This document shows, one piece after another, positions 1,659 through 17,521 of a stretch of DNA of 42,453 bases (positions are counted from its first letter, which is position 1; every line of letters starts with the position of its first letter). The DNA lies in NCBI GenBank assembly GCA_913057645.1, contig CAJXOU010000025.1, positions 1 to 42,453 of the forward strand, written 5' to 3'. A model generated the notes under the pieces. That model did not search any database and had not been told where the DNA came from. It saw nothing but the letters and a program-made list of their open reading frames with translations. The translations under genes and the position numbers were made by a program. The stretch is from an uncultured Rhodobiaceae bacterium (lineage in GTDB: Bacteria; Pseudomonadota; Alphaproteobacteria; Parvibaculales; Parvibaculaceae).

Positions 1659-2978
1659 ATGTGCGAAGACAATGTGGCGATCGGCCGGGACTATACCCGC
1701 AAGAATGCGGAGATGGCGGCTCGCTGGAAGATCGACGTCAACCGCGATCCCGGGTCGATCCCGCTTGAGGAACTCGATCCCGCGCATGACGATCTCTTCG
1801 GCGCCAACAAGGTACTGCCCTATTTCGAGCGGCTGAGAAAGGAAGACCCGGTTCACCTGAACGAGACCGGGCCTTACGGACGCTACTGGTCGATCACGAA
1901 ATATGAAGACATCATGTTCGTCGATACGAACCACAAGCTCTTCTCCTCCGACATCCGCAATGGCGGCATCCGCCTCGGCGGCTTGCCGCTCGAAGGCGAG
2001 CCCGATCCGCTCACCTATCTGCCGATGTTCATCATGGAAGACCCGCCCAAGCATGACGAGCAGCGCAAGGTCGTGCAGCCCATGTTCACGCCGCAGAACC
2101 TCGCCGATCTCGAACCGGTGATCCGCGAGCGCGCCGGACAGATTCTCGACGAGCTGCCGCGCGGCGAAACCTTCAACTGGGTGCGCGAGGTTTCCGTCGA
2201 ACTCACCGGCCGCACGCTCGCCACGCTGTTCAACGTGCCGCAGGAAGACCGGCACAAGCTCATCCACTGGTCGGACACGGTGGAGCGCATCGGCGATCCG
2301 GAATATTTCGAGACGCCGGAAGACGCCTTCAAGGAACTCTGGAACTGCTGGGAATATTTCGACGGCGTCTGGAAGGACCGGCTGGAGAACCCCGGCTCCG
2401 ACCTCATTTCGATGCTCGCGCATGGCGAGTCGACGAAGAACATGCCGCCCAACGAATATCTCGGCAACATGCTGCTGCTCATTGTCGGCGGCAACGACAC
2501 GACACGCAATTCGATCACCGGCGGCGTGCTCGCGCTCAACCAGCATCAGGACGAATACAGGAAACTGAAGGACAATCCGGACGTCATTCCCAACATGGTG
2601 TCGGAGATCATCCGCTGGCAGAGCCCCGTCGCGCATATGTGCCGCACCGCGATGGAGGATGTCGAGGTGCGCGGCAAGACCATCAGGAAGGGCGACAAGG
2701 TCGCCATGTGGTACGTCTCGGGCAACCGCGACGACGAGAAGATCGACCGCGCCAACGAGTTCCTGATCGACCGCGAGGGCGCGCGTCACCATCTTTCCTT
2801 CGGCTTCGGCATTCACCGCTGCATCGGCAACCGCGTCGGCGAGATGCAGCTCCGCATCCTCTGGGAAGAGATCATGAAGCGGTTCAGCAATGTCGAGGTG
2901 GTGGCAGAGCCGAAATATCTCCGCTCCAACTTCATCCGTGGCATCACGGAACTGCCCGTGGTGGTTCACGCCAAATAG
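1659..2978 (+). CDS. Cytochrome P450, CYP153-type alkane hydroxylase
   Basis: A soluble 439-residue bacterial class I P450 expected to hydroxylate the terminal carbon of medium-chain alkanes or fatty acids, using electrons from a ferredoxin and reductase. Seen: I-helix oxygen-activation segment GGNDTTRN (277-284), ExxR pair E316-R319, and heme ligand C388 in FGFGIHRCIGNR (381-392). The motifs LLLIVGGNDTTRNSITGG and HHLSFGFGIHRCIGNR are characteristic of CYP153A. I chose the ATG at 1659 because GAGGGA lies eight bases upstream; in-frame TTG 1626 and ATG 1629 have no such site. No ferredoxin or reductase gene follows, so its redox partners are encoded elsewhere. Hairpin repeats flank the gene on both sides. 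Confidence 0.95.
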   Translation: MCEDNVAIGRDYTRKNAEMAARWKIDVNRDPGSIPLEELDPAHDDLFGANKVLPYFERLRKEDPVHLNETGPYGRYWSITKYEDIMFVDTNHKLFSSDIRNGGIRLGGLPLEGEPDPLTYLPMFIMEDPPKHDEQRKVVQPMFTPQNLADLEPVIRERAGQILDELPRGETFNWVREVSVELTGRTLATLFNVPQEDRHKLIHWSDTVERIGDPEYFETPEDAFKELWNCWEYFDGVWKDRLENPGSDLISMLAHGESTKNMPPNEYLGNMLLLIVGGNDTTRNSITGGVLALNQHQDEYRKLKDNPDVIPNMVSEIIRWQSPVAHMCRTAMEDVEVRGKTIRKGDKVAMWYVSGNRDDEKIDRANEFLIDREGARHHLSFGFGIHRCIGNRVGEMQLRILWEEIMKRFSNVEVVAEPKYLRSNFIRGITELPVVVHAK

Positions 2979-3002
2979 AGCGACTGAGAAGACCGTGCTG
3001 TC

Positions 3003-3028
3003 ATCCCGGGCCTCGTGCCCGGGATTTC
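3003..3028 (+). terminator. Putative terminator after the P450 gene
   Basis: ATCCCGGGC (3003-3011) pairs perfectly with GCCCGGGAT (3017-3025) around a 5-base loop, followed by a short T-rich run (TTTCTCCC). It lies 25 bases past the P450 stop. The U tract is weak, and the hairpin also resembles common alphaproteobacterial intergenic hairpins. Confidence 0.5.
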
Positions 3029-3033
3029 TCCCT

Positions 3034-3195
3034 CACCCTCCCCCTGTGGGAGGGTCAAACGGTCGAAGACCGTTTGGGGAGGGGTGCTCCGTTTGCCCCG
3101 ATTTGCGCGCCATCGACGTCGTTCCGCCGCAACCCCTCCCCGAAATTTCCTCCGCTCGCGCTCCGCAAATTTCGACCCTCCCACAGGGGGAGGGT
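3034..3195 (+). repeat. Four-hairpin intergenic repeat, copy 2
   Basis: Same arrangement and orientation as the copy at 1421-1588: CCCTCCCC/GGGAGGG, CAAACGGTC/GACCGTTTG, CGAAATTT/AAATTTCG, CCCTCCC/GGGAGGG. The second hairpin differs between copies in both arms so that pairing is kept (GGC/GCC against GGTC/GACC), and the internal spacer is diverged. That pattern favours selection on structure or duplication with compensatory change. Confidence 0.85.
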
Positions 3196-3227
3196 GGTGA
3201 AGCAGGCCTCATTTGCGAACGGGACAT

Positions 3228-3280
3228 TTGACACTCATGCGCTCATGCCCTAATTTCGACCGAACGGTCGAAATAGGAAA
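3228..3280 (+). promoter_or_regulatory. Rieske-gene promoter with overlapping TetR-type operator
   Basis: TTGACA (3228-3233), a 17-base spacer and TAATTT (3251-3256) form a promoter candidate. A near-perfect dyad with 10-base arms, ATTTCGACCG-AA-CGGTCGAAAT (3253-3274), covers the -10 and the likely start site, and AGGAAA (3275-3280) is the ribosome site before the ATG at 3287. Length, symmetry and position are typical of TetR-family repressor sites. Which repressor binds is not shown; the regulator at 713 is the nearest candidate. Confidence 0.7.
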
Positions 3281-3286
3281 CCCGCC

Positions 3287-4420
3287 ATGCCCGCCTCGCT
3301 CTCAACCCTGATGGAAGAAGGCCGCCGCGCCGTCCTGCGCCCGCTTGCGCAGGCCTCCACGCTGCCGCCCGGTTTCTACACCTCGCCCGAAATCTTCGAG
3401 GCGGAGCGGGAGCGCGTCTTCCGCCGCAACTGGGTCTCCGTCGGCCGCGCCTCGGAAATCCCGCAACCCGGCGACCGCTTCCGGATCGACGTTGCGGGCG
3501 AGCCGCTCATGATCGTGCGCGGGAAGGATGCGCGGATCCGGGCGCTCTCCGCCGTCTGCCGCCATCGCTGGATGCTGCTCGGCGAGGGCGCGGAAAGCGC
3601 GGGCACCATCGCCTGCCCCTATCACAAATGGACCTATGCGCTGGACGGCGCGCTCATGGCCGCGCCCCTGATGGACAAGGCCGAAGGCTTCGAGCGCGAC
3701 GCCTGCGCGCTTCCCTCCTTTGCCTGCGAGGTCTGGAACGGTTTCATCTTCGTCAATCTGGGCGGCGATGCCGAACCGCTTGCGCAAGCGCTCGCGCCGC
3801 TTGCGGCCGAATTCGCGCCCTGGAAGATGGACGAGCTCGAAATCGCCGGCCGCGTCGAATTCGACCAGCCTTACAATTGGAAGGTGCTCGCCGACAATTT
3901 CATGGAGGCCTATCACCATTTCGCCATCCATCCGGAGACCTTCGAGCCGAACTACCCGGCGGCGATCTCCCGTGCGGAAGAGACGAACGCGCCCTGGGCC
4001 GCGCTGCGCATGCCGCACAAGGATGGCGCGCTTTCGGAAACGCTCTTCCAGCCGCTCGACGGGATTCCGGACGGCGCGCGGCGGGGTTTCTCCGTTTTCA
4101 ACGTCTACCCCTCCATGCTGCTCGCCGTGCTCGCCGACAGCGTCATCTGGTACCGCATGGAAATCGACAGCGTCGACCGCTTCAAACTCACCATCTATCT
4201 GCTGGTTCACCCCCAGGCGCTCGACGTGCCCGACGCCGAAGCCCTCAAGACCTTTCTCCGCGAGGGCGCCTACGCCGTGCACATGGAAGACATCGCCGCC
4301 TGCGACGGCGTGCAGCGGGGCCTCATGAGCGGCTCGGCGCGGGCCGGCCGCCTCAGCCATCTCGAAGGCGCGATCCACGAACACCAGAAGTGGCTCATGG
4401 CTGAACTCGCCCGGCCGTGA
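3287..4420 (+). CDS. Rieske non-heme iron oxygenase, alpha subunit
   Basis: A 377-residue aromatic-ring-hydroxylating-type oxygenase subunit. The Rieske [2Fe-2S] ligands are C91, H93, C110 and H113 (CRH, 16 residues, CPYH). The mononuclear iron site is seen in DNFMEAYHHFAIHP, with H210 and H215; an acid in HMEDIAACDG (332-341) fits the third ligand. The length and single-chain form resemble the group that includes carnitine, choline and stachydrine oxygenases as well as aromatic dioxygenases, so the substrate is open. No beta subunit, ferredoxin or reductase gene is adjacent. Its 3' end overlaps the convergent gene at 4395 by 26 bases. Tight repression until a ligand appears is suggested by the operator over its promoter. 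Confidence 0.92.
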   Translation: MPASLSTLMEEGRRAVLRPLAQASTLPPGFYTSPEIFEAERERVFRRNWVSVGRASEIPQPGDRFRIDVAGEPLMIVRGKDARIRALSAVCRHRWMLLGEGAESAGTIACPYHKWTYALDGALMAAPLMDKAEGFERDACALPSFACEVWNGFIFVNLGGDAEPLAQALAPLAAEFAPWKMDELEIAGRVEFDQPYNWKVLADNFMEAYHHFAIHPETFEPNYPAAISRAEETNAPWAALRMPHKDGALSETLFQPLDGIPDGARRGFSVFNVYPSMLLAVLADSVIWYRMEIDSVDRFKLTIYLLVHPQALDVPDAEALKTFLREGAYAVHMEDIAACDGVQRGLMSGSARAGRLSHLEGAIHEHQKWLMAELARP

Positions 4421-6316: not shown

Positions 6317-7363
6317 CTACTGCCGCACCAATTCGACGCGGCGGTTGAGCGCGCGGCCTTCTTCGCTGTCATTGCTGGCGACCGGTGCCAGAAGGCCGAC
6401 GCCGGCCGGTTTGAGGCGTGCGGCGGCGATGCCGTAAGCCGCCGTGAGTTCCGCTGCCACGCTTTCGGCGCGGCGCGCCGAGAGCGAGGTGTTGTAGTCA
6501 TAGGCACCCTGATTGTCGGTGTGGCCCACGACATAGAGTTTCAGCTCCGCATCCGCGTTCAGAAGTTTCGCGATCTCGTCGAGCGTCTCCTTCGACTCGG
6601 GCTTTACCGCCGCGCTGTCCGTGTCGAAATAAATGCCGTAAAGCGCGATGCGGCCGGTCTCCGTCAGCGCCTTTGCCATCGCCTCCGCCTCGACGAGAAC
6701 CATGCGCTGTTCCATCTCGCCGGTTTCGACCACGTCCAGCAGGACGAGCGCGCGCTTCGCGGTTTGCGGAAATTGTTCGAAGCCCTCGATGGCGATGGCA
6801 AGGGAGACATAGACGGCGCCTTCGGGACGGTCGAGCTTCGCCGACAGGTAGCGGACATCCTGCGGCTCGGAGAACGCGTATTGCGTGACCCTGCCCATAT
6901 TCTCGAGCGGGGCGCGCGGCAGCAGGGCGCGGCTGATGAGGGTGGAACCGGCGCGCGGCACATCGGGACCGGCGCCGCATTCGGCGCCCTTGCATTCGAA
7001 GATCGCCGTGAAGCCCTTGTCCGCCAGTTCCTTCTGGTAGTTGCGGAAAACCTCCAGCGTGCTGCGGCCTTCGGGCGCCGCATAGAGGAGGCGCGTCAGT
7101 GCCCCTTCGACCGTCTGTCTTTCGGTCAATGTCGCGTCGAAGCTCCTGTGCGGGCCCGTCGCGATATCGAACTCGCCATAGGCCGAGGTCCGGTAGCCGA
7201 TGATGAGCGAGCCCTCGTAGCGCTTGATCAGCGGGTGATCGCGCGCGCCCTCCACATCCGCTGCCCGCGCGTCGCTCGCCGCCACGAGACAGAAGATCGT
7301 TGCCGCCAGGACGACGAGATATCGCCCCGGCAACAACTCCATCCGGCGGGTGAACGCGCTCAC
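6317..7363 (-). CDS. OmpA-family protein with DUF4892-like N-terminal domain
   Basis: A 348-residue exported protein. The N-terminus has basic residues then a hydrophobic stretch ending SDARA (cleavage near residue 34). The middle domain (DHPLIKRYEGSLIIGYRTSA... to about 210) resembles the DUF4892 proteins found joined to OmpA domains. The C-terminal 115 residues are a clear OmpA/MotB peptidoglycan-binding domain: YGIYFDTDSAAVKPES, VVGHTDNQG, LSARRAESVAAEL and LNRRVEL. It would anchor to peptidoglycan in the periplasm. The GTG start at 7363 overlaps the stop of the upstream gene as GTGA, which suggests translational coupling; an ATG at 7342 is the alternative and neither has a strong ribosome site. 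Confidence 0.88.
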   Translation of the reverse strand: MSAFTRRMELLPGRYLVVLAATIFCLVAASDARAADVEGARDHPLIKRYEGSLIIGYRTSAYGEFDIATGPHRSFDATLTERQTVEGALTRLLYAAPEGRSTLEVFRNYQKELADKGFTAIFECKGAECGAGPDVPRAGSTLISRALLPRAPLENMGRVTQYAFSEPQDVRYLSAKLDRPEGAVYVSLAIAIEGFEQFPQTAKRALVLLDVVETGEMEQRMVLVEAEAMAKALTETGRIALYGIYFDTDSAAVKPESKETLDEIAKLLNADAELKLYVVGHTDNQGAYDYNTSLSARRAESVAAELTAAYGIAAARLKPAGVGLLAPVASNDSEEGRALNRRVELVRQ

Positions 7364-8208
7364 CAGCGCACGCCGAGGCGCGCGAAGCCGCTGAATTCGA
7401 ACGACTCGTCGCGCGAGAAGCGATAGCTGAACGAAGGCGAGGTGCCCATCGCGGAGGCTTCGGGCAGGAAGTCGCCCTGGATGCCGACGCCGAAGAACAT
7501 GTCGTCGTGGCCGTCCAGAGGCACGTCCACATTCAGGCCGACGCTCGGGCCGACACGCGTGACGTCCTCCGAGAAGTGACTGACCGTGCCGAGCTCGTCC
7601 GTCGTCATGCTGAGTTCGCCGCGCTGCACCGTCACGCCGGCCCAGGGCGTAAACGCCAGGGGGTTGTTCGCGAACTCCGTCTGGAGCATCAGCATGTAGC
7701 CGAGATAAAGCGTCAGCATCCACTGTGCCTCGTACCCGATAGACGTCAGCGCGCTCGGAAAGGGATGGATGGCCTGCCGCGTCGTTCCCTCACCGTCTAC
7801 CGGCAGGCGGCCGCGCACGCCGATCACCGGGCCCTTGCACGGCGTCTTCCTTATCTCCCGCAGCGCCTGGTCGGTAACTTCCTGGGGCGGCGGCGCGACA
7901 TTCGTCATGCCGCCCATTCCCTCGCCGAGCCGGTCGACGCGCACGCCGGCGTCGATGCCGACTATGGCTTGCGTGAAGCTGTCCCCGCCGCTTGCCGGAG
8001 GGCCGTAATTGCCGCTCACCCCGAGGTCGCCGGTCGCCGATCCGGCGCCGACTTCCAATGCCGCCCAGCCTTCGGTGCAGAACGGCCCGGCCGCTGCCTC
8101 CCCGGTGCCGAGCGCGCCCGCCGCCGAAAGGGCGACGAAGGCCGCCGCAATCTTTCCCCGTCCCGCGCGCCGCGGCGCGCCTGTCTGCCTGTTCTGTCTC
8201 GATGTCAT
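7360..8208 (-). CDS. Outer-membrane beta-barrel-like protein
   Basis: 282 residues, with GAGGG eight bases before the ATG. An Arg-rich n-region and Ala-rich core (AAAFVALSAAGALGTGEAAA) form a signal peptide cut near residue 40. The mature part alternates short hydrophobic strands with Gly/Asp turns and ends FSGFARLGVRW, an aromatic C-terminus typical of barrels inserted by BamA. Strands such as AQWMLTLYLGYMLML, WAGVTVQRGELSMTT and VGPSVGLNVDVPL fit amphipathic transmembrane strands, resembling transporter-like porins of the phenol-degradation type, though I cannot name the family. It is first in an operon with the OmpA-like gene (4-base overlap) and the large secreted protein, and is divergent from the pseudo-hydrolase/LuxR regulator, its likely controller. 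Confidence 0.8.
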   Translation of the reverse strand: MTSRQNRQTGAPRRAGRGKIAAAFVALSAAGALGTGEAAAGPFCTEGWAALEVGAGSATGDLGVSGNYGPPASGGDSFTQAIVGIDAGVRVDRLGEGMGGMTNVAPPPQEVTDQALREIRKTPCKGPVIGVRGRLPVDGEGTTRQAIHPFPSALTSIGYEAQWMLTLYLGYMLMLQTEFANNPLAFTPWAGVTVQRGELSMTTDELGTVSHFSEDVTRVGPSVGLNVDVPLDGHDDMFFGVGIQGDFLPEASAMGTSPSFSYRFSRDESFEFSGFARLGVRW

Positions 8209-8300: not shown

Positions 8301-8316
8301 TCATCACTAGTGATGA
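8301..8316. promoter_or_regulatory. Perfect 16-bp palindrome, probable operator of the divergent LuxR-type regulator
   Basis: TCATCACTAGTGATGA is perfectly symmetric and sits in the 153-base divergent intergenic region, 45 bases before the regulator start at 8362 and 92 bases before the barrel gene start at 8208. On the plus strand, weak TTGCTC (8290-8295) and ATGATA (8313-8318) with 17-base spacing would place the palindrome over the spacer and -10, as for autoregulation. A looser repeat CCCTAC/GTAGGG (8265-8270, 8284-8289) lies nearer the barrel gene. The binding protein is inferred from position. Confidence 0.6.
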
Positions 8317-8361
8317 TAGGATCGGTTTTGCCGGGTGTTATTCGAGGCTCCGGAGGGCGAA

Positions 8362-9945
8362 ATGGACCAGTCGGCCGAGGCAGGGGAAAACCGGCGAAAA
8401 GGGGAGGGGTTTCCCCGTCCCGCCGTCTGGTGCGGCGAGGCGCCGGAGGGCGAGGCCTCTCCGGTGATCCTCTATGTCTATGGCGGCACCTTCGCCATGA
8501 ATCGCGGCCCCATGCACCTCGTCGTCGCGGAAGCCGTCGCTCGCCACGCGCGGGGCCGGGTCCTCATCCCCGAGTACCGGCTGGCGCCGGAACATCCCTT
8601 TCCGCTCGCGATCGAGGATGTGGTCGCCGTCTACCGCGCGCTTCTCGCGCAAGGCATCCCGCCCGGGAAGCTCGTCGTGATGGGCGATACGGCGGGGGCG
8701 GGCATTGCGCTTGCCGCGCTCATCGTGCTCCGCGACGAAGGTGCGCCGCTGCCGGCCGGCTTTGTCGCGCTCACGCCCTGGGCCGACCTCACCATGTCGG
8801 GCGGCTCCTATGTCGAGAACATCCGGCCCGGCCGCTTCGCTTCCGACGTCGAGGTGCTGGCGATGCTGACGCTCGATTATCTGCAGGGCGCCGATCCGCG
8901 TCACCCGCTTGCTTCCCCCGTCTTCGGCGATCTCTCCGGGCTTCCCGAGACGCTCATCCATGCGGGCGCGGACGACATCCTGCTCGACGATGCGAAGCTT
9001 CTCGTCGAGGGGTTGCGCCGCGCGGGCGGCCGCGCGCATCTCCATGTCTGGCAGGGACTTCCGGACACCTGGCAGCGCCTGCAGCCGCTCTCGCCGCAGG
9101 CGACGGCCGCGCTTGCGAGCATCGGCCAGTTCGTCAAGCGCCGTACCGGTGCGCCCGTACACAGCGCGGCCGAAAAGCAGCAGATCAGCGACGCCTACGC
9201 GAAGGGCATCTCGGAGTTCGTGCAGCCCCACATGACGGAGCGGTTCGACCAGCTCTTCGAATGGGCGCGGGACCACGATCCGGACTGGATCTGGCACTTC
9301 ATGGAGCGCAGGCTCGAATTCGGTGCGCTCGTCACGCAGGAGCAGATCGAGCATGACTGGCTCGCCATGCTCTTTGCCGACGCCCCCGATCCGATGGTGC
9401 TCCTGAGCGCGAGCCGCCACGTCATTCTTGCGAACCGGGGCGCGCGGCAGCTCTTCGACAAGGGCAATGTGCTGCTGCACCGGAACGGCAGGCTGGTCGG
9501 CGCCGATCCGGGAGGCGAGGCGGTGCTCGGCACGCTGATCGGCCAGGCTTTCGGACTTGTCAGTAGGGGAGCCAATTTCGGCCCCGCGGACCGCTATGCG
9601 CGGCTTGCGGGCGGAACGGCAGGCGACCTCCTGATGCGCTGCGAACGCATCCAGCCACCGGTGGACGGTTCGGGCGCGCCGCCGATCGCGCTCTTGCGCA
9701 TTTTCGAAGAGGAGAGAAAGCGGCGGATCGACCGGGACGCGCTCGTCGCTTGGTACGGCCTCTCGCCACGCGAGGCGGAACTTGCCGCCGCGTTTGCGGA
9801 AGGGCAGCCGCTTGCCGCTTTCGCGCGCGAGAACGGGCTTTCGATGCCGACCGTGCGCACGCATTTCTCGCATATCAAGGCGAAGCTCGGTGCGGCGGAT
9901 CAGGCGGCCGTCGTCGGCAAGATCATCCGCGCCGCTTTCGGCTGA
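8362..9945 (+). CDS. Degenerate HSL-type alpha/beta hydrolase fused to PAS-like segment and LuxR HTH; probable ligand-sensing regulator
   Basis: 527 residues; ATG at 8362 chosen for GGAGGG five bases upstream (an in-frame GTG at 8335 lacks one). Residues 15-260 follow the hormone-sensitive-lipase fold: LYVYGGTFAMN (37-47) at the HGGG position, YRLAPEHPFP (72-81), GDTAGA (108-113) at the GDSAGG elbow, DDILLDD (204-210) and GLPDTWQ (232-238) at the catalytic-His loop. The nucleophile Ser is Thr110, the His is Asp235 and the HGG His is Tyr40, so ester hydrolysis is unlikely. Residues about 340-400 (DAPDPMVLLSASRHVILANR) look like a PAS domain. Residues 464-527 are a LuxR HTH (YGLSPREAELAAAFAEG, TVRTHFSHIKAKLGA). 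I infer a one-component sensor whose former active site binds a ligand, controlling the divergent exported-protein operon and itself. Confidence 0.88.
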   Translation: MDQSAEAGENRRKGEGFPRPAVWCGEAPEGEASPVILYVYGGTFAMNRGPMHLVVAEAVARHARGRVLIPEYRLAPEHPFPLAIEDVVAVYRALLAQGIPPGKLVVMGDTAGAGIALAALIVLRDEGAPLPAGFVALTPWADLTMSGGSYVENIRPGRFASDVEVLAMLTLDYLQGADPRHPLASPVFGDLSGLPETLIHAGADDILLDDAKLLVEGLRRAGGRAHLHVWQGLPDTWQRLQPLSPQATAALASIGQFVKRRTGAPVHSAAEKQQISDAYAKGISEFVQPHMTERFDQLFEWARDHDPDWIWHFMERRLEFGALVTQEQIEHDWLAMLFADAPDPMVLLSASRHVILANRGARQLFDKGNVLLHRNGRLVGADPGGEAVLGTLIGQAFGLVSRGANFGPADRYARLAGGTAGDLLMRCERIQPPVDGSGAPPIALLRIFEEERKRRIDRDALVAWYGLSPREAELAAAFAEGQPLAAFARENGLSMPTVRTHFSHIKAKLGAADQAAVVGKIIRAAFG

Positions 9946-9960
9946 GCTTTCATCGACCGA

Positions 9961-10269
9961 TCAGGCCGGTGTCTTTTCATCCCGGTCTTCGAGCGCTTCC
10001 CGCACCGCTTCGGGCGCGCGCATGATAAGCGTGATGAGCGTTCGCGCCGCGCCTCCTGGTTGCCGCTTTCCCTGTTCCCATTTCTGCAGGCCTGAAACGC
10101 TGGTGCCGACAAGCCGCGCGAAATCGGGCTGCGTCATCTTCAGCGCCTTTCGGGCCTTCTTCACATCCACAGGCTCTACCGAGTGAACGCGGACACCCGT
10201 CTTGCCGCCCTTGGCATGTTCGAGCGCCTCTTCCATGGAAGAGATCAGTTCCCTGGCAAAATCGCTCAT
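9961..10269 (-). CDS. HTH (XRE/NadS-type) antitoxin
   Basis: 102 residues; GAGGAG precedes the ATG by eight bases. The HTH lies in KMTQPDFARLVGTSVSGLQKWEQGKRQP (about residues 40-67), the XRE form seen in NadS/HigA-type antitoxins, including the WEQGKRQP end and a C-terminal tail with EAVREALE. It follows the toxin gene by 16 bases in the same operon, toxin first, as in higBA systems. It should bind the toxin and repress the operon, probably at the two CCCAWTGGG sites (10638-10679). It is convergent with the regulator ending at 9945. Confidence 0.88.
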   Translation of the reverse strand: MSDFARELISSMEEALEHAKGGKTGVRVHSVEPVDVKKARKALKMTQPDFARLVGTSVSGLQKWEQGKRQPGGAARTLITLIMRAPEAVREALEDRDEKTPA

Positions 10270-10285
10270 CGTCGATACTCCTCTT

Positions 10286-10624
10286 CTACTTTCTCTGCCT
10301 TGCCGCTTTCTTGATTGCGGCGGCAAGTGCCGAAACCACTTTTCTCTCTGCGGCGGAGAGGTCGGCTTTTTCGTTCTTGCCGTAGATCATCAGCGCATAA
10401 AGCGGGATGCTTTCGGCGTAGTAGTAATAGATGACCCGGACGCCACCGCTTTTGCCTTTGCCACTGGCGGCGAAACGAACCTTGCGCACGCCGCCCGTTC
10501 CCACGATTTCATCGCCGGCCTCCGGGTTCCCGGCAAGAAACGCGATCAATTCGCCGTATTCGTCCTCGCTCAACAGGGCCGCGGCGCGTTTCTGGAAGAT
10601 GCTGGTCTCGGCCACCGTCTGCAT
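10286..10624 (-). CDS. RelE/HigB-type toxin
   Basis: 112 residues, matching the small RelE-like toxin fold: TSIFQKRAAALLSEDEYGELIAFLA (substrate-facing helices), GTGGVRKVRFA, then GGVRVIYYYYAESIPLYALMIYGKNEKADLS, whose strands and YGKNEK motif are typical of the PF06296-type toxins paired with NadS-like antitoxins. Members inhibit translation, usually by ribosome-dependent mRNA cleavage; activity here is inferred. The start at 10624 is chosen over an ATG six codons upstream because it matches family length. The candidate operators lie just upstream, one overlapping the longer version of the reading frame. Confidence 0.88.
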   Translation of the reverse strand: MQTVAETSIFQKRAAALLSEDEYGELIAFLAGNPEAGDEIVGTGGVRKVRFAASGKGKSGGVRVIYYYYAESIPLYALMIYGKNEKADLSAAERKVVSALAAAIKKAARQRK

Positions 10625-10637
10625 AGCGGAAATATAA

Positions 10638-10679
10638 CCCAATGGGCGACATTTTCAAAGGAAAACTAACCCATTGGGT
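10638..10679. promoter_or_regulatory. Paired operator candidates for the toxin-antitoxin operon
   Basis: CCCAATGGG (10638-10646) and CCCATTGGG (10670-10678) are inverted copies of the same 9-base near-palindrome; the second extends to a perfect ACCCA-T-TGGGT. Their centres are 32 bases apart, about three helical turns, so two antitoxin dimers could sit on one face of the DNA. They lie immediately upstream of the toxin start, the expected place for autoregulation. Confidence 0.6.
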
Positions 10680-10866: not shown

Positions 10867-11811
10867 TTGAGCACGGACGAAAAAGGCGCCACCGGCGACA
10901 TCGAGGCCATTCGCAAGGGCTTCGAGACGCGCGGCTATATCTGCAACGCGCATATCGCGACTTCCATCTTCCTCTCGGAGAAGCTGCAGAAGCCGCTTCT
11001 GGTCGAAGGGCCTCCCGGCGTCGGCAAGACCGAGCTCGCCAAGGCGACGGCGGAACTTGTCGGCAAGCCCCTCATCCGTCTGCAGTGCTACGAAGGGCTC
11101 GACGAGGCGAAGGCGCTCTATGAGTGGAAATACGGCAAGCAGCTTCTCTATACGCAGGTGCTGAAGGAGAAGCTCGGCGATCTCATGTCCGGCGCGCAGG
11201 GCCTGAAAGAGTCCATGACGCGGCTGCACGATTTCGACGACACCTTCTTTTCCGAAGAGTTTCTGGAGCCGCGCCCGCTTCTGAAGGCGTTGTGGCAGCC
11301 GGGCGGCGCGGTGCTGCTGATCGACGAAATCGACAAGTCGGATGACGAGTTCGAGGCCTTTCTGCTCGAACTTCTGTCCGACTACCAGATTTCGGTGCCG
11401 GAACTCGGCACGATCAAGGCGCGCACCACGCCCATCGTCTTCCTCACCTCCAACAACACACGCGAGATCGGCGATGCGCTGAAGCGGCGCTGCCTGCATC
11501 TCTACATTCCGTTTCCCGACACGGATCTTGAGCAGCGCATCATCGCGGCGCGCGTGCCGGAAATGGAAGTGCGGCTCAGGACGCAGCTCGTCGCCTTCGT
11601 GCAGGGGCTCCGCCAGCTCGACCTCAAGAAACTTCCGGCGGTCAGCGAAACCATCGACTGGGCGCGCACGCTCGTTCTGCTTCACGCGCGCGAACTCGAC
11701 GCCGATCTCGTCCGCAACACGCTCAATGTCCTCCTGAAGTTCCAGGACGATATCGACAATGTGGACGGCGAAGTGAACGCGCTTCTGGCAAAGGCCGTGC
11801 AGGCGGGGTAG
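10867..11811 (+). CDS. MoxR-family AAA+ ATPase
   Basis: 314 residues with Walker A GPPGVGKT (48-55), Walker B VLLIDEID (149-156), a sensor-1 Asn in FLTSNN and arginine-finger region LKRRCLHLYIPFP. The CoxD/MoxR style (NAHIATSIFLSEKLQKPLLVEGPPG) marks the subgroup that works with a VWA partner in maturing metalloenzymes or envelope complexes. The start is a TTG at 10867 with no good ribosome site, so the true start may differ by a few codons. A TTGACA lies at 10774-10779, but no -10 at normal spacing follows. The VWA gene at 11988 is its evident partner; the two are separated by an intergenic repeat. Confidence 0.92.
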   Translation: MSTDEKGATGDIEAIRKGFETRGYICNAHIATSIFLSEKLQKPLLVEGPPGVGKTELAKATAELVGKPLIRLQCYEGLDEAKALYEWKYGKQLLYTQVLKEKLGDLMSGAQGLKESMTRLHDFDDTFFSEEFLEPRPLLKALWQPGGAVLLIDEIDKSDDEFEAFLLELLSDYQISVPELGTIKARTTPIVFLTSNNTREIGDALKRRCLHLYIPFPDTDLEQRIIAARVPEMEVRLRTQLVAFVQGLRQLDLKKLPAVSETIDWARTLVLLHARELDADLVRNTLNVLLKFQDDIDNVDGEVNALLAKAVQAG

Positions 11812-11850
11812 TAGGAGGCGGAAGTCGTGACAATCTGTGAAAACAGAATC

Positions 11851-11940
11851 GTCATGACCCGCTTTATGCGGGTCATCCACGCCTTCCTTTCCAGCGTCGC
11901 CGTAAAGACGTGGATGGCCCGGACAAGCCGGGCCATGACG
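11851..11940. repeat. Intergenic hairpin-pair repeat
   Basis: Two perfect 9-base stems, ATGACCCGC/GCGGGTCAT (11854-11876) and ATGGCCCGG/CCGGGCCAT (11914-11936), enclose CATCCACG (11874-11881) and CGTGGATG (11909-11916), which also pair. The whole unit can fold as a cruciform. The GACAAGCCGGGCCATGAC wording is a familiar dispersed alphaproteobacterial repeat. It sits between the MoxR and VWA genes and may attenuate readthrough. Confidence 0.75.
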
Positions 11941-11987
11941 GCGAGAGAGCATGGTTTTCACCTTTTCCACATGTACTGGTGTGCGCG

Positions 11988-13424
11988 ATGAGTGAAGTTC
12001 TCGGCGATTTCATCCGTGCGCTCCGGTCGGCCGATATCCGCGTCTCGACATCGGAGTCGATCGACGCGGGTAACGTGATCGACCTTGTCGGCTTCGACGA
12101 CCGGCAGACGCTGAAGGACGCGCTCTCCCAGGTGCTTGCGAAGAGCGACGACGAGAAACAGGCCTTCGCCGAGACCTTCGACACCTATTTCTCCTTCGAG
12201 CAGTTCAAGGAACGGCCCGCCGCCGCGAACGAAAACGATGAGCGTGAGCGTCAGGAGAGCGAGGAAGACGGCGGCGACGGCGAGGATGGCGATCCCTCGC
12301 AGTCCGGCAGCGCCTCGGCGCCGGGTGGCGGGGGCATGAGCGGCGAGCCGCAGGGCGAACCGTCTTCCGCGAACATGGACCTCGCCGCACTTCTCGAACG
12401 CGGCGATCAGGCCGAACTCCAGATGGCGCTCGCGGAAGGCGCGCGGCAGGCGCGGCTCAACCGCATCCGGCTTTTCACGCAGCGCGGCATGTTCACGCGC
12501 CGCATCATGGAAAACATGGGTCTCGACGGTCTCAACGAGGAGATCGAGCGCCGCGAGGCGTCCGGTAATCAACGCGGCGCCGAAAGTCTGGGCCAGGCGC
12601 GCGAGGAGTTGCGCGGTCAGGTGCGCGACTATGTCGAGAAGCAGCTCGAAATCTTCACCGCGAATTCAGGCCGCCAGCTTCGCGAGGAAGTGCTGGCGCA
12701 GATGCGCCTTTCCAATGTCGACCGCTCCGACATGAAGATCATGCGCGAGCTCGTGCGCAAGATGGCGAAGCGTCTGATCGCGCTCCATTCGCGCCGCAAG
12801 AAAGTCGCGCGGCGCGGCACGCTCGATATCCGCCGCACGATCCGCGCCAATATCGAATTCGACGGGTTGCTCTTCCACACGGTCTGGAAGAAGACGAAAG
12901 TCGACCGGCCGAAGGTCATGGCGGTCTGCGACGTGTCGGGCTCGGTCGCGCAGGTCTCGCGTTTCCTGCTGATGTTTCTCTACAGCCTGCAGGAAGTGCT
13001 GCCGGCCGTTCGCAGCTTCGCCTTTTCCGGTCATCTCGGCGAGACGACGGATCTCTTCAAGCGAGAGAAGCTCGAAGAGGCGCTTGTGGAGGTGCTGCGC
13101 GACTTCGGCGGCGGCTCAACGGACTACGGTCAGGCGCTGATGGATTTCGAGGAACTGGCGCTCGACGACATCGACCACCGCACCACCATTCTCATCCTCG
13201 GCGATGCCCGTTCCAACTACGGCGATCCGCGCGGCGACATCCTGAAGAAAATCCATGCCCGTGCGCGCCGCGTCATCTGGCTCAACCCCGAGCCGCGCAC
13301 GATGTGGAACTCGGGCGACAGCGAGATGCGCCGCCTCTCCCCCTATTGCGACAAGGCGGTCACCTGCGCCTCGCTCAAGGACCTCGAACGCGTCGTCTCC
13401 GAGCTTCTCCGCAGCGCCGTCTGA
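11988..13424 (+). CDS. VWA-domain protein, CoxE-like, partner of the MoxR ATPase
   Basis: 478 residues. The N-terminal 75 residues (FIRALRSADIRVSTSES...) are the CoxE-type lead-in; residues 75-130 are an acidic/Ser-Gly linker of low complexity; 130-300 is helical and basic; the VWA domain follows with MIDAS DVSGS (315-319), GGGSTDYGQAL carrying the MIDAS Thr, and ILGDARSNYGD. The protein should bind Mg2+ and a substrate while the MoxR ATPase remodels it. CoxDE serve Cu/Mo insertion in CO dehydrogenase, but no coxMSL genes are near, so here it is an orphan pair of unknown client. ATG at 11988 fits the family N-terminus; its ribosome site is poor. Confidence 0.92.
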   Translation: MSEVLGDFIRALRSADIRVSTSESIDAGNVIDLVGFDDRQTLKDALSQVLAKSDDEKQAFAETFDTYFSFEQFKERPAAANENDERERQESEEDGGDGEDGDPSQSGSASAPGGGGMSGEPQGEPSSANMDLAALLERGDQAELQMALAEGARQARLNRIRLFTQRGMFTRRIMENMGLDGLNEEIERREASGNQRGAESLGQAREELRGQVRDYVEKQLEIFTANSGRQLREEVLAQMRLSNVDRSDMKIMRELVRKMAKRLIALHSRRKKVARRGTLDIRRTIRANIEFDGLLFHTVWKKTKVDRPKVMAVCDVSGSVAQVSRFLLMFLYSLQEVLPAVRSFAFSGHLGETTDLFKREKLEEALVEVLRDFGGGSTDYGQALMDFEELALDDIDHRTTILILGDARSNYGDPRGDILKKIHARARRVIWLNPEPRTMWNSGDSEMRRLSPYCDKAVTCASLKDLERVVSELLRSAV

Positions 13425-13680
13425 GCTGTTTCGCGCCGGTCATTTTCCGGGGATTACTTTTCTCGCGGCGCGGGCCGGTGCCTTTCATGACGTTTCAGTG
13501 ACAGTTCGATGACAGCCGGCGCGCGCTCTAGGCAAGTTATCCCCGCGCCGATAGACTTTCCGTCTCATTCTGGGGCGATGGGGCCGGTTTCGCACGGGCA
13601 CGTCTGCTGCAACGAAGGGGCGGAGCGGTCCCCTTGGCGCGTACAAGATGTGCCAAAACGGGCCACGGAATCAGTGTGTT

Positions 13681-14694
13681 ATGAGTTCTGGGGGCGGTAT
13701 GGCGGGGCGCGCCATCGCAAAATCGGAGAGAGGAAGCGGGCAGCACCGTGTGCTTTTGCTCGTCTTTTTTGTGCCCCTCTTTGTGCTCTCCTGGACGTAC
13801 GCCCGGGCCGAACCGCTGCGGCTCGCGCCGCCGTCCGTGGAGAGCGTCGCGCTCACGCGGGATTTGCCTGTTGAATCAACATCTTCCGAGGCGCCACCCG
13901 CGCCCGTGAAGCGCGAGCGCTACAACGTCGTCGTGCTCGGCGACTCGCTCGGCGACGGCACCTGGGCGGGTCTCTATCACGTGCTCCGCAAGGACAAGCG
14001 CTTCAACGTCATCAAGAAATCCAAGGTGGCGACAGGCTTCTCGCGTCACGATTATTACGACTGGAACCAGGCGGTGCGCGAGATCGCGGCGGAAACGCGC
14101 ATCGACATCGCCATCGTCGTGATGGGCACCAACGACCGTCAGGCCATCGTCGAAAACGGACAGCGCCATGCGCTCTTCGACGACAACTGGCGCGCGGTCT
14201 ACAAGCAGCGTGTCGACGATTTCACAACGACGCTGAAGAACACCGGCGCGCATATCTACTGGCTCGAACTTCCCGTCATGCGCAGCCCTCGCTTCGGCGG
14301 CGACATGGAACAGTTCAACGAGATTTTCGAGGAACGCGCGCGCCTCAACAACATCACCTTCGTGCAGACCGACGGCCTCGCGACCGGCGCCGATGGCGGT
14401 TACACCGCCTATGGCGAAGACCGCTTCGGCCGCACGCGATTGCTGCGCGCGGAAGACGGTATCCACTTCACGATGGCCGGATACGAACTGCTCGGCGAGC
14501 GCATTGCCGATGCAATGCTTGCCGATCTCGACGGCGCGGCGATTGCGGTGACGCCACCCGGTTCGCCGGAAACCGTTGTATTGAAGGGCAGCGATACGCC
14601 CGCGGAAGAGCCAGAAAAGGCTGTAAACTATGACATGGCGGACAGGCGCCCCGGCCGGTCGGATGACTGGCTCTGGCTCGGCGCCACCAACTGA
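13681..14694 (+). CDS. SGNH-hydrolase-like (DUF459-type) exported protein
   Basis: 337 residues with a signal anchor or peptide (VLLLVFFVPLFVLSWTYARA, end near residue 43). SGNH blocks: VVLGDSLGDGTW with Ser89, VVMGTNDRQ with the block III Asn, and EDGIHFTMAGY with the catalytic Asp/His. DUF459-type proteins of this form are found beside MBOAT acyltransferases and may transfer or remove O-acyl groups from surface glycans in the periplasm. The ATG at 13681 and one at 13699 are both possible. The next SGNH gene starts inside its 3' end. The 256 bases before it (13425-13680) hold no gene or motif I can name. Confidence 0.87.
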   Translation: MSSGGGMAGRAIAKSERGSGQHRVLLLVFFVPLFVLSWTYARAEPLRLAPPSVESVALTRDLPVESTSSEAPPAPVKRERYNVVVLGDSLGDGTWAGLYHVLRKDKRFNVIKKSKVATGFSRHDYYDWNQAVREIAAETRIDIAIVVMGTNDRQAIVENGQRHALFDDNWRAVYKQRVDDFTTTLKNTGAHIYWLELPVMRSPRFGGDMEQFNEIFEERARLNNITFVQTDGLATGADGGYTAYGEDRFGRTRLLRAEDGIHFTMAGYELLGERIADAMLADLDGAAIAVTPPGSPETVVLKGSDTPAEEPEKAVNYDMADRRPGRSDDWLWLGATN

Positions 14695-15937
14695 CGTTTG
14701 GCGTGTCTTGCGCCGTCTCTTCCCTGCCGCCGCGCCTGTCGTTTTCGCCGTTCTTCTTGTTGCGCCCGTTCGCGCCGACGATTGCAGTCCGGTGTCCGTA
14801 CCGCAAGGACTCGAGCGCTTCCATGCTGCAATGGAAGAGGTCGAAGCAGGTGAGCGGTCGAAGCCGCTTACCGTTCTTCATCTCGGCGACAGCCATATTC
14901 CCCTCGACACGTTCACGCGCGGTTTGCGTCAGCGCTGGCAGGCGCGTTTTGGCGATGCCGGCCGCGGGCTCATGCCTGGTGTGCCGTTCCGCTATTACGC
15001 GCCGGATGGATATGACATCGAAATGGAGGGCGCGTGGAACATCGCATCGAGCCTGCCGCGAGACGCCTCCGGCCCGTTCGGCATTCAAGGCTTCCGGGTC
15101 AGCAGCGGCGATGACGACGCCACCATCTCCCTGCGCTCGGACAATCCGGTTTCCGCCGTCGAGATCGAAGCCTATGGCGGACCGGATACGGGCGCCTTGC
15201 TTCTGAAACTCGGAGAGGCCGCACCGCTCAAGCTGCCGACGCGTCAGGCGGTGCCGGGCCTCGTCCGTTTTCGCGTGCCGGCAGCGAATGTGCATGAGAT
15301 TCGTCTCGTGCCCGCCGGAACGGGCACGGTTCATCTTCTCGGATGGGCAATCCTCTCTCCCGCGAAGCCGGGTGTGCGGTACGACAGCCATGGCGTTGTC
15401 GCCGCCACCGCGTCGATCACCACGCGGTGGGACAAGGATGCGGTGCGCGCGCAGGTCGCCGCGATGAACCCCGATCTCGTCATTCTCGGCTTTGGGACGA
15501 ATGAAGGTTTCAACAACGGTCTCGACATCGCGGCCTACGGCGCCGAGCTTGCCGGCTTCATCGATCTTCTCATGGCGGCGGCACCCGGTTCCTCGCTCGC
15601 CCTTCTCGGACCGTTCGACGGGGCGCGGCAGGGCGCGGGCGAAACATGCGGCGGAGGCTGGACGACACCGCCGAAACTTGATGCGGTGCGGAGCGTTCTC
15701 GCAAACCTTGCCGCCGCGCGCGGCGCTTTCTTCTGGGATGGCGGTGCAGCGATGGGCGGACGCTGCTCGGCGGATGAATGGGCGCGGGCCGAGCCGCCGC
15801 TCATGTATGCGGACAGGGTACACCTTCGCGCGGCCGGAGCCGAACGGCTCTCGGCGCAGCTATGGAACTCGTTGATGGGACTTGAAGAAAACGTGGCTGA
15901 AAGCGGTGCCTGTCACGCAGATGACGCGCCGGATTAA
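14663..15937 (+). CDS. Second SGNH/GDSL-like exported protein
   Basis: 424 residues from ATG 14663, overlapping the previous gene by 32 bases; an ATG at 14630 is in frame too. Signal peptide LFPAAAPVVFAVLLVAPVRA ends near residue 38. Block I is VLHLGDSHIP (Ser77), block III VILGFGTNEG, block V YADRVHLRAAGAERL, giving a Ser-Asp-His set. Between blocks I and III lies a roughly 150-residue beta-rich insert (AVEIEAYGGPDTGALLLKLGE...), like the carbohydrate-binding or jelly-roll inserts of larger SGNH O-acyltransferases. It would act in the periplasm with the MBOAT protein at 16070. The first protein has the same catalytic blocks without this insert, so the two are not simple duplicates. Confidence 0.86.
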   Translation: MTGSGSAPPTDVWRVLRRLFPAAAPVVFAVLLVAPVRADDCSPVSVPQGLERFHAAMEEVEAGERSKPLTVLHLGDSHIPLDTFTRGLRQRWQARFGDAGRGLMPGVPFRYYAPDGYDIEMEGAWNIASSLPRDASGPFGIQGFRVSSGDDDATISLRSDNPVSAVEIEAYGGPDTGALLLKLGEAAPLKLPTRQAVPGLVRFRVPAANVHEIRLVPAGTGTVHLLGWAILSPAKPGVRYDSHGVVAATASITTRWDKDAVRAQVAAMNPDLVILGFGTNEGFNNGLDIAAYGAELAGFIDLLMAAAPGSSLALLGPFDGARQGAGETCGGGWTTPPKLDAVRSVLANLAAARGAFFWDGGAAMGGRCSADEWARAEPPLMYADRVHLRAAGAERLSAQLWNSLMGLEENVAESGACHADDAPD

Positions 15938-16069
15938 CCAAGAATACAGGCAGAGATTGAGCTTTTCGGCCTCAGCGGGGATGATGCGGGCAATGCCGTC
16001 ATGCCCCCCTGATGGTTAGTTTGGGCGACATGTGTGTGCGGGTAACGCTCGCGCGAGTATCGGGGCGGC

Positions 16070-17521
16070 ATGCTTTTTCCGACGATCGAGTTCGGGATTT
16101 TCTTTCTGATCGTTTTTGCGGTCAGCTGGGCCATGCGCGGCGCGCCGGAGCTGCGCAAGTTCATCCTGCTCGGCGCGAGCTATTTCTTCTATGGCTGGTG
16201 GGACTGGCGGTTCCTCGGACTTCTTTTCCTCTCGACGCTGATCAACTACCTGGCAGGCCTCGCTGTCGCCCATGTCCGGAGCGAAGGTCTGCGCAAGTTC
16301 ATCGTCGGTATCGCCGTTGTTGCCGGGTTGTCGATCCTCGGCTTCTTCAAGTATTACGGCTTCTTTCTTACGTCATTCGCGACGCTGCTGGAGACTGCGG
16401 GTCTGGAGCGGGACTTGCCGTTCATGCAGGTGATCCTGCCGGTCGGCATATCCTTTTTTACCTTCCAGGGCATTTCCTATGTGGTCGATGTCTATCGCGG
16501 CCACGCGACGGCAGAGAAATCGCTCCTGAACGTGATGCTCTACATCTCCTTCTTCCCGCAGCTCGTGGCGGGGCCGATCGTGCGCGCGGCGGATTTCCTG
16601 CCGCAGCTTCACCGTGCGCCTGCGCTGACGCGCGCTCATATCGGTGTCGGAGTGGTGCTGATCCTGTCCGGTCTTGCGAAGAAGATGGTGATCGCGAATT
16701 ACCTGGCGACCGAGCTTGTCGATCCGGTTTTCTTCGATCCGACGGCGGTGGGCGCGCTGGACCTGCTGATCGGCGTCTACGGATATGCCGTCCAGATCTA
16801 TTGCGACTTCTCGGGATACAGCGACATCGCCATTGGCGTTGCGGCGTTGCTCGGTTATCGCTTTCTCGAGAATTTCGACCAGCCCTATCGCGCGTCGAGC
16901 CTTCAGGACTTCTGGCGGCGCTGGCATATCTCGCTCTCTACCTGGCTCCGCGACTATCTCTATGTTCCGCTTGGCGGCAACAGATACGGAGAAGCGAAGA
17001 CCTATCGCAATCTCTTCCTCACCATGTTTCTCGGCGGCATCTGGCACGGCGCCGCATGGACTTTCGTTTTCTGGGGTACGTTCCACGGGGCGATGCTCGC
17101 CGTGGAACGTTATGCGCGGAAGAAGCTCGACGAGTTCGCCCCGCCGCATAGCGATCCCGGCGGTGTGATGACGGCGTTCGGAAACGGTGCGCAGCACATT
17201 GTAGGCATCGTCTGGACATTCCATCTGGTGTGCTTTGCGTGGATATTCTTCCGCGCCGACAGTTTCTCGACGGCGGGGAGCTATCTCGCCGGCTTTGCGC
17301 GCTGGTCGGAGCCGAGCCAGTATGTCACACCGTTCGCCGTCGGCCTGATCGTCCTCGCCATGTTCTTCCAGTTCACGCCGCGCAATCTCGGGCGATGGCT
17401 TGCGCAACTCATACAGTGGCTGCCGTCGCCGATGCTCGGGCTTTTGCTTGGCGGGGGTATCTGGTTCATCTGGGCCGTCGCGCCCGAGGGTGTCGCACCC
17501 TTCATCTATTTCCAGTTCTGA
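16070..17521 (+). CDS. MBOAT-family membrane O-acyltransferase
   Basis: 483 residues with about ten to twelve membrane segments. Family signatures are clear: SYFFYGWWDWRF, FFTFQGISYVVDVYRG, MLYISFFPQLVAGPIVRA, QIYCDFSGYSDIAIG, LQDFWRRWHISLSTWLRDY-type region, and the catalytic His in GGIWHGAAWTF. AlgI, PatA and DltB relatives move an acyl group across the inner membrane to a periplasmic acceptor; the flanking SGNH proteins would finish transfer to a polysaccharide. No polysaccharide synthase genes lie in the window, so the acceptor is unknown. It starts 132 bases after the second SGNH gene and is followed seven bases later by a small membrane protein. Confidence 0.95.
   Translation: MLFPTIEFGIFFLIVFAVSWAMRGAPELRKFILLGASYFFYGWWDWRFLGLLFLSTLINYLAGLAVAHVRSEGLRKFIVGIAVVAGLSILGFFKYYGFFLTSFATLLETAGLERDLPFMQVILPVGISFFTFQGISYVVDVYRGHATAEKSLLNVMLYISFFPQLVAGPIVRAADFLPQLHRAPALTRAHIGVGVVLILSGLAKKMVIANYLATELVDPVFFDPTAVGALDLLIGVYGYAVQIYCDFSGYSDIAIGVAALLGYRFLENFDQPYRASSLQDFWRRWHISLSTWLRDYLYVPLGGNRYGEAKTYRNLFLTMFLGGIWHGAAWTFVFWGTFHGAMLAVERYARKKLDEFAPPHSDPGGVMTAFGNGAQHIVGIVWTFHLVCFAWIFFRADSFSTAGSYLAGFARWSEPSQYVTPFAVGLIVLAMFFQFTPRNLGRWLAQLIQWLPSPMLGLLLGGGIWFIWAVAPEGVAPFIYFQF

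Follow-up and report, generated by a model that had tools for sequence, protein, structure and literature searches.

We report here a gene of an uncultured Rhodobiaceae bacterium that probably encodes a switch evolved from an enzyme. The gene lies on the forward strand at positions 8362..9945 of the 42,453-nucleotide stretch that was analysed (the window), and its 527-residue product joins an HSL-type hydrolase that has lost catalytic residues to a LuxR-type DNA-binding domain. Fusions of the same origin are conserved in other genomes, with a palindrome upstream and outer-membrane-type genes as divergent neighbours. These comparisons make it likely, if far from certain, that the protein is a one-component regulator of the LuxR type, that a former HSL esterase serves as its sensor, and that it descends from an esterase-HTH operon; we infer both its DNA binding and its ligand.

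The gene is a single uninterrupted frame running from the ATG at 8362 to the stop codon at 9943-9945, with no frameshift. An alternative GTG start is present at 8335, and a GGAGGG sequence is found at 8352-8357, 4 nucleotides upstream of the ATG. The protein consists of an HSL-type alpha/beta hydrolase domain (residues 20-262, 8419..9147), a helical linker (residues 263-334, 9148..9363), a PAS-like segment (residues 335-455, 9364..9726) and a LuxR (GerE) HTH region (residues 456-527, 9727..9942), all encoded on the forward strand. Abhydrolase_3 (PF07859) matched residues 36-234 (E 5.4e-44) and GerE (PF00196) matched residues 467-517 (E 5.6e-7, 29.5 bits against a cut-off of 23.5) in Pfam, both above cut-off, in agreement with the original prediction of one intact HSL-LuxR fusion gene made from the sequence of the window. 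The prediction of a PAS-like segment leading into a LuxR HTH stands for the HTH, but the PAS-like segment is weak: PAS_8 matched residues 335-366 at E 0.029, below cut-off. A profile of the PAS and HTH region (positions 76-259 of 266) matched a LuxR protein at E 1e-24, which in turn shows a weak match to the PAS family PF00989 in Pfam (E 0.0011, likewise below cut-off). The secondary structure of the segment is predicted, with low confidence, to be PAS-like. We use the PAS label as a weak one, weak directly and transitive through the matched LuxR protein. The autoinducer-binding domain of AHL-type LuxR receptors is absent among the five Pfam families that matched the protein at E <= 1. Directly downstream of the fused gene, the reverse strand at 9961-10642 carries genes that look by eye like an XRE-type antitoxin and a RelE/HigB-like toxin.

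Among solved structures, HSL esterases (E40, EstE5 and EstD11, for example) are closest in sequence to the hydrolase part. The hydrolase domain modelled on its own (mean pLDDT 76.7, pTM 0.81) had HSL-type esterases as its best structural matches, with Aes72, EstD11 and EstE5 first; the pocket loops 43-48 and most of 146-174 in this model are at pLDDT < 50. The full-length AlphaFold model has a mean pLDDT of 56.4 and served only for secondary structure and for the hydrolase part, which superposed on EstD11 (7auy_B) with a Z score of 26.0 and an rmsd of 2.6 over 208 residues, EstD11 entering the alignment only from its residue 32 on. The structural comparison with HSL esterases that had been suggested thus gave the expected fold. 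Alignment to HSL esterases also confirmed that the three replacements at the active site are real. HGG is changed to YGG, with Tyr40 (8479-8481) in place of the oxyanion His within the remodelled loop YVYGGTFAMNRGPMH (residues 38-52, 8473..8517, forward strand); GDSAG is changed to GDTAG, with Thr110 (8689..8691, forward strand) in the place of the nucleophile Ser; and ..MPH.. is changed to ..LPDTW, with Asp235 (9064..9066, forward strand) in the place of the catalytic His. The acid-loop Asp (Asp205, 8974..8976, forward strand) is kept.

Relatives were collected from the window genome with 60 relatives, from 40 genomes of the order and from wider samples, leading to the identification of 24 distinct full-length fusions in three genera: 6 in Parvibaculum (the genus of the window), 14 in a second genus of the same family (g3) and 4 in a genus of another order (g125). 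Full-length fusions are found in 6 of 27 Parvibaculum genomes, a contig-edge fragment in G026 being excluded from all counts. Five of the seven g3 genomes have them, always as two or three paralogues, which are adjacent in G028, G032, G035 and G062 and lie on separate short contigs in G063. All four g125 genomes carry one fusion each. This genus was the only addition from 385 genomes sampled across the class; 398 genomes sampled across the phylum yielded none besides that of the window. In both samples at most six candidates were scored per genome, with a profile that would miss independent HSL-HTH fusions with an unrelated C-terminus. The fusions form one clade (support 100/100). A plasmid origin of the fusion was rejected: in a tblastn search of 72,556 plasmid records, 97 had a match at E 1e-20 but in none did it reach 80% coverage of the query, and the 15 of these 97 that were listed concern the hydrolase part only. 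Viral-contig scans returned no relative in two cases and one distant hydrolase each in two others. Several Parvibaculum genomes also carry a reverse fusion (L048:2054-3826, L069, L070, L082) in which a PAS-like segment and an HTH precede an alpha/beta hydrolase. The L048 protein matches Abhydrolase_1 (PF00561) and has a GerE score of 22.3 bits, just below cut-off in Pfam, and the other three were assigned by eye, their catalytic motifs looking intact.

We then compared the fusions with 30 non-fused HSL proteins, 16 from the two-gene (split) modules described below and 14 others. All 30 keep the catalytic residues and the HGG His. Across the 24 fusions, Tyr always replaces the HGG His (motif YGGT, with one row YVGT) and Thr always occupies the nucleophile position; the acid position is kept as Asp or Glu, and where the catalytic His would stand there is Asp, Glu, Ser or Thr and in no case His. 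To the question in the original prediction of whether the three replacements are conserved, the answer is yes for Tyr40 and Thr110 and no for Asp235, which varies. None of the 24 has an intact triad and the frame shows no frameshift, so that two of the three findings named beforehand as able to overturn the prediction, the two that can be read from sequence, did not turn up. Eight positions (Y40, T43, N47, G49, P50, T110, G148 and T236) hold the same residue in all 24 fusions and never hold it in the 30 intact relatives, and all eight fall inside five loops around the old active site that make up 60 of 233 positions, these loops having been picked from HSL motifs after the alignments were viewed and not from structure. 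Mean column entropy in the fusions is 0.56 in the active-site loops against 0.98 elsewhere; in the split enzymes the values are 0.57 and 0.92, a contrast nearly that of the fusions. By the Nei-Gojobori method, over 12 pairs of which several have dS near or above 1, the hydrolase domain has a dN/dS of 0.09-0.15 among Parvibaculum fusions (5 pairs) and of 0.01-0.08 among g3 fusions (7 pairs), within the range of the linker and HTH. The former active site thus appears to have been remodelled and frozen and not to have decayed, and it looks as if it is under selection for something other than hydrolysis. As to the claim of a shortened N-terminal cap, the stretch before the HGG loop is indeed short in residue count, although the cap itself is modelled only at low confidence. 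The Tyr or His stands at position 31-78 in the 24 fusions (upper bounds, counted from the first possible start), at 96-144 in the 16 split relatives and at 74 or beyond in the 14 others, so that the fusions are shorter than every split relative and their range just overlaps that of all the non-fused proteins.

The same data bear on an improbable alternative in which the protein would be a bifunctional enzyme-regulator with an unusual activity, Thr acting as nucleophile and an acid residue in the place of His. Thr110 and the acid-loop Asp or Glu are conserved, and His-to-Asp and His-to-Glu variants of an HSL esterase have been crystallised (Est1 H274D and H274E, from the titles of the PDB entries). 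We found these structures without a paper on their activity, and a change of His to Asp or Glu is therefore by itself no proof of inactivity. The variation of the His position among Asp, Glu, Ser and Thr is however unlike that of a catalytic residue, and the HGG His is Tyr in all the fusions.

The sister clade of the fusions is made of two-gene modules in the family of the window, in which an HSL gene with an intact triad is followed by a gene for a small HTH protein of 129-148 amino acids. The clade of fused and split forms is moderately supported (90/82), and the two split groups, split1 and split2, come together at 94/91. In 8 of 8 split1 and 7 of 8 split2 modules the small gene can open within a narrow span around the last sense base of its hydrolase partner, from 4 nucleotides before it to 8 nucleotides after it; these starts were chosen by hand, and four of those in split2 lie just past the stop codon, meaning that the genes abut and do not overlap. 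The HTH profiles of fused and split proteins are 46% identical over 67 columns, and homology extends to the fused linker, which matches the N-terminal portion of the small protein (hhalign probability 95.7, E 8.7e-9 over 39 columns, against E 0.14-0.46 for three column-shuffled controls). Two of 11 small proteins were scanned in Pfam and matched GerE and no PAS family. Full-length matches to the small protein are confined to the family of the window in a 289-genome class sample with at most 14 candidates scored per genome. The shared linker and HTH, together with the intact triad of the sister modules, indicate that hydrolase and HTH were probably associated before they were fused, and the loss of catalysis probably maps to the fused branch. 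Two genomes, G017 and G032, contain both the fused and the split version.

Because the sister modules are pairs of abutting or overlapping genes, one could suppose that the fusion is an accidental read-through of two genes, or else an ordinary enzyme in decay. Either seems extremely improbable in view of 24 fusions in three genera that form one clade, with dN/dS of 0.01-0.15 and a conserved palindrome. We rejected a frameshift or two-gene artefact given the intact frame in the window and the full-length frames of the 24 fusions, and random decay given the low dN/dS and the fusion-specific invariant residues in the active-site loops.

Which part of the protein senses is less clear-cut. The frozen and remodelled pocket favours the hydrolase as the sensor, and the PAS-like segment could be another sensor, possibly the only one. 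Were it the only one, the dead hydrolase would be a scaffold, a dimerisation platform or a protein docking surface, a proposal that we regard as unlikely although it deserves weighing. The PAS-like segment adjoins the HTH in the 14 fusions aligned, and PAS-LuxR proteins that have no hydrolase are found beside outer-membrane-like genes (L049 and L111, see below). Against a mere scaffold, the fusion-specific invariant residues are all in the loops of the former active site. Against sensing by the PAS-like segment alone, dN/dS among the four regions peaks in this segment for 10 of 12 pairs, and the small split HTH proteins scanned match no PAS family while still having a hydrolase as neighbour.

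The palindrome TCATCACTAGTGATGA is located at 8301..8316 of the window, has no strand of its own and is proposed as the operator. A counterpart is present upstream of all 24 fusions, with its centre 24-74 bp before the chosen start codon, and is of the type CATCA-N4-TGATG (in full, TCATCA-N4-TGATGA) in 20 of them and CATCACCAAATTTGGTGATG in the four of paralogue g3b. None of 11 control upstream regions, taken from 11 of the 14 other HSL genes, contains it. Split modules have palindromes of their own in 15 of 16 cases: ATCAYCAAAAYTGGTGAT or a near form in 8 of 8 split1 modules, nearly equal to the g3b site CATCACCAAATTTGGTGATG, and CATAC-N4-GTATG in 7 of 8 split2 modules. The palindrome core is expected 0.01 times per window. 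The 16-mer TCATCANNNNTGATGA at 8301-8316 is the sole copy in the window genome; it is likewise single in G024, G022, G012 and G001 and present three times in G017, hence once per genome in five of the six Parvibaculum fusion genomes. The core CATCA-N4-TGATG occurs at 8 sites in the window genome (G000), the other seven being inside open frames (six) or near a contig end (one), and in this genome the site at 8302-8315 is the only one that we claim as a putative operator.

The 16-mer is also found in 11 of 18 genomes that have no fusion, in 1-4 copies each, whereas the reversed pattern used as a control is present in only 2 of 33 genomes, so the 16-mer is common in these genomes for whatever reason. 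Of the further copies in fusion genomes, nine were inspected. Eight are inside open frames (L149, L153, L156, L157, L159, L175, L182 and L183), that of L175 (G063) having the exact g3a palindrome sequence, and the ninth (L181) is intergenic. Since further copies lie inside frames and in genomes devoid of fusions, the motif alone does not mark a target, and the case for an operator follows from its placement before 24 of 24 fusions and not from the number of motifs. The occurrence in fusion-less genomes would suit an account in which the fusion is a real regulator and the palindrome is the site of some other factor, such as one that regulates outer-membrane genes more widely. This is in our view quite improbable given the palindrome before every fusion, its single copy in five of six Parvibaculum fusion genomes and the paralogue-specific variants that coexist within one genome.

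On the upstream side of the regulator, a divergent outer-membrane, autotransporter or barrel-like gene is found for 23 of the 24 fusions, that of G347 (L114) being the exception, and for all 16 split modules. In the window this gene, at 7360..8208 on the reverse strand, encodes 282 amino acids with a signal-like N-terminus and the ending ...FARLGVRW, and is guessed to be an outer-membrane barrel protein; it has no Pfam match. Its frame reaches back to a GTG at 8307, and the ATG at 8208 was preferred because the G024 homologue starts there. Among the loci compared, it occurs in the window genome and G024 only. Next in the divergent direction is a gene for an OmpA-family/DUF4892 protein (6317..7342, reverse strand, start estimated by homology), whose homologue at L034:8825-9877 matches PF00691 and PF16234. 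It stands on the divergent side of the fusion in all six Parvibaculum loci, with the 282-residue gene intervening in the window and G024. The divergent genes of g3 and g125 are of the autotransporter type (PF03797 in the three scanned, the others by similarity to them), and those of the split modules look barrel-like by eye, with no Pfam match in the four of 16 that were scanned. In the g3 loci L026, L027, L028 and L116 the pair of regulator and autotransporter genes is repeated in tandem 2-3 times, each copy with its own palindrome variant. The conserved palindrome together with the divergent outer-membrane gene indicates a probable operator and a probable target for the regulator. The reading of the protein as a regulator in the original prediction is thus supported by these two features and by the eight fusion-specific invariant residues in the active-site loops.

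Some palindromes precede genes that face no regulator. One at L026 15618 lies before an autotransporter gene (15701-17515, PF03797 match) with no regulator opposite, and another, at L177 2001, is some 90 bp upstream of what by eye is the likely ATG (2095) of an autotransporter frame (1903-3924, PF03797 match) that also faces none. In three g125 genomes (L176, L178 and L179) a palindrome adjoins a gene of the secreted-VWA type (VWA by Pfam in L176 only), whose opposite neighbour looks by eye acyl-CoA-ligase-like in two and antiporter-like in one; this gene is a possible further target in g125. A MoxR-like ATPase gene and a VWA/CoxE-like gene (by eye) follow the fusion in the window (10867-13424) and in g3 (L028:13472-15949), and in G159 (L177:353-1882) a VWA gene similar to the latter faces an autotransporter gene with the palindrome. 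PAS-LuxR regulators without a hydrolase were seen next to outer-membrane-like genes that look like those in split modules (L049:12801-15347 and L111:3-2640), and in L049 the PAS-LuxR gene (14229-15347) adjoins such a gene at 12801-14117. This juxtaposition suggests that those outer-membrane-like genes may travel with LuxR regulators.

A single origin from an operon coupling an HSL esterase to a small HTH protein would account for these features. On the fused branch, the catalytic residues would have been lost and the N-terminus shortened, a PAS-like segment would have ended up between linker and HTH, and the loops of the old active site would have been rebuilt and then fixed. The remodelled pocket may bind a small ligand (an ester, a carboxylate or a lipid-like molecule) without turnover, alone or with the PAS-like segment. 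Ligand binding would then set how the HTH dimer sits on the palindrome (TCATCA-N4-TGATGA) that separates the regulator gene from the divergent outer-membrane genes; the dimer would control these genes and probably its own. More tentatively, as a reading more likely wrong than right, we propose that HSL-LuxR modules are an undescribed regulator family existing in two states within one family of bacteria. In the split state, a live esterase would sense and destroy the signal and convey its own state to an HTH partner that has no sensor; in the fused state, with turnover abolished, the protein would be left as a stable receptor for that molecule or one related to it. What the signal reports on may be the outer membrane, or else lipid or ester substrates of the divergent barrel and autotransporter proteins.

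The case for a transition from enzyme to receptor usually has to be built on distant relatives. In the present system the linker, the HTH, palindromic sites and a divergent outer-membrane-type gene are common to intact-triad and dead versions, and these are found in close relatives and even within a single genome (G017 and G032). The sequence of events (association, fusion, loss of catalysis, remodelling of the pocket) thereby becomes directly testable. The palindrome and the divergent genes also provide a named candidate DNA site and named candidate targets for a ligand search.

Several known systems resemble parts of the fusion. The HSL (family IV) esterases E40, EstE5 and EstD11 have the same fold and are 36-40% identical to it over the hydrolase domain, but they are esterases with Ser and His intact, whereas the fusion has neither, has a short N-terminus and carries an HTH. 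PAS-LuxR regulators of Alphaproteobacteria match it by profile in the PAS-like segment and the GerE HTH; they have no hydrolase domain, and their matches start past most of the linker (at position 71 or later). The L048:2054-3826 protein likewise has an HTH and an alpha/beta hydrolase in one chain, in the reverse order, with a hydrolase of another family (PF00561) and catalytic motifs that look intact by eye. Among the titles and the starts of abstracts listed from the open-access literature, we found no HSL-LuxR fusion regulator.

The original prediction likened the protein to the plant hormone receptor GID1. GID1 keeps Ser and Asp and loses only the His (to Val or Ile), has its own N-terminal lid, and binds the hormone in the old substrate site (PMC5709395). 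The parallel stands as far as an HSL fold with the catalytic His lost and turned receptor, a role that is putative in the fusion, but it fails for the same route, since GID1 keeps its Ser and the fusion has lost the Ser and the HGG His too. The window protein has only 39 residues before Tyr40, too few for such a lid as judged by length and not by structure. GID1 acts through DELLA proteins, whereas the fusion carries its DNA-binding domain in the same chain. GID1 is absent among the 50 structure-search matches listed, which excludes nothing, and we take it as the closest in idea but a partial analogy only. In BzdR, an HTH is joined to a shikimate-kinase-like effector domain that is derived from an enzyme and has lost its enzymatic activity (PMC3602430). 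BzdR, which is backed by experiment, shares with the fusion an enzyme-derived effector domain joined to a DNA-binding domain, and differs in the enzyme fold and in the reversed domain order; a shikimate-kinase-like domain is absent among the five Pfam families matched by the window protein at E <= 1. BzdR is the nearest proven precedent that we met for an enzyme turned regulator. One-component regulators with an enzyme-derived sensor are already known, and the fusion would be a variant of them.
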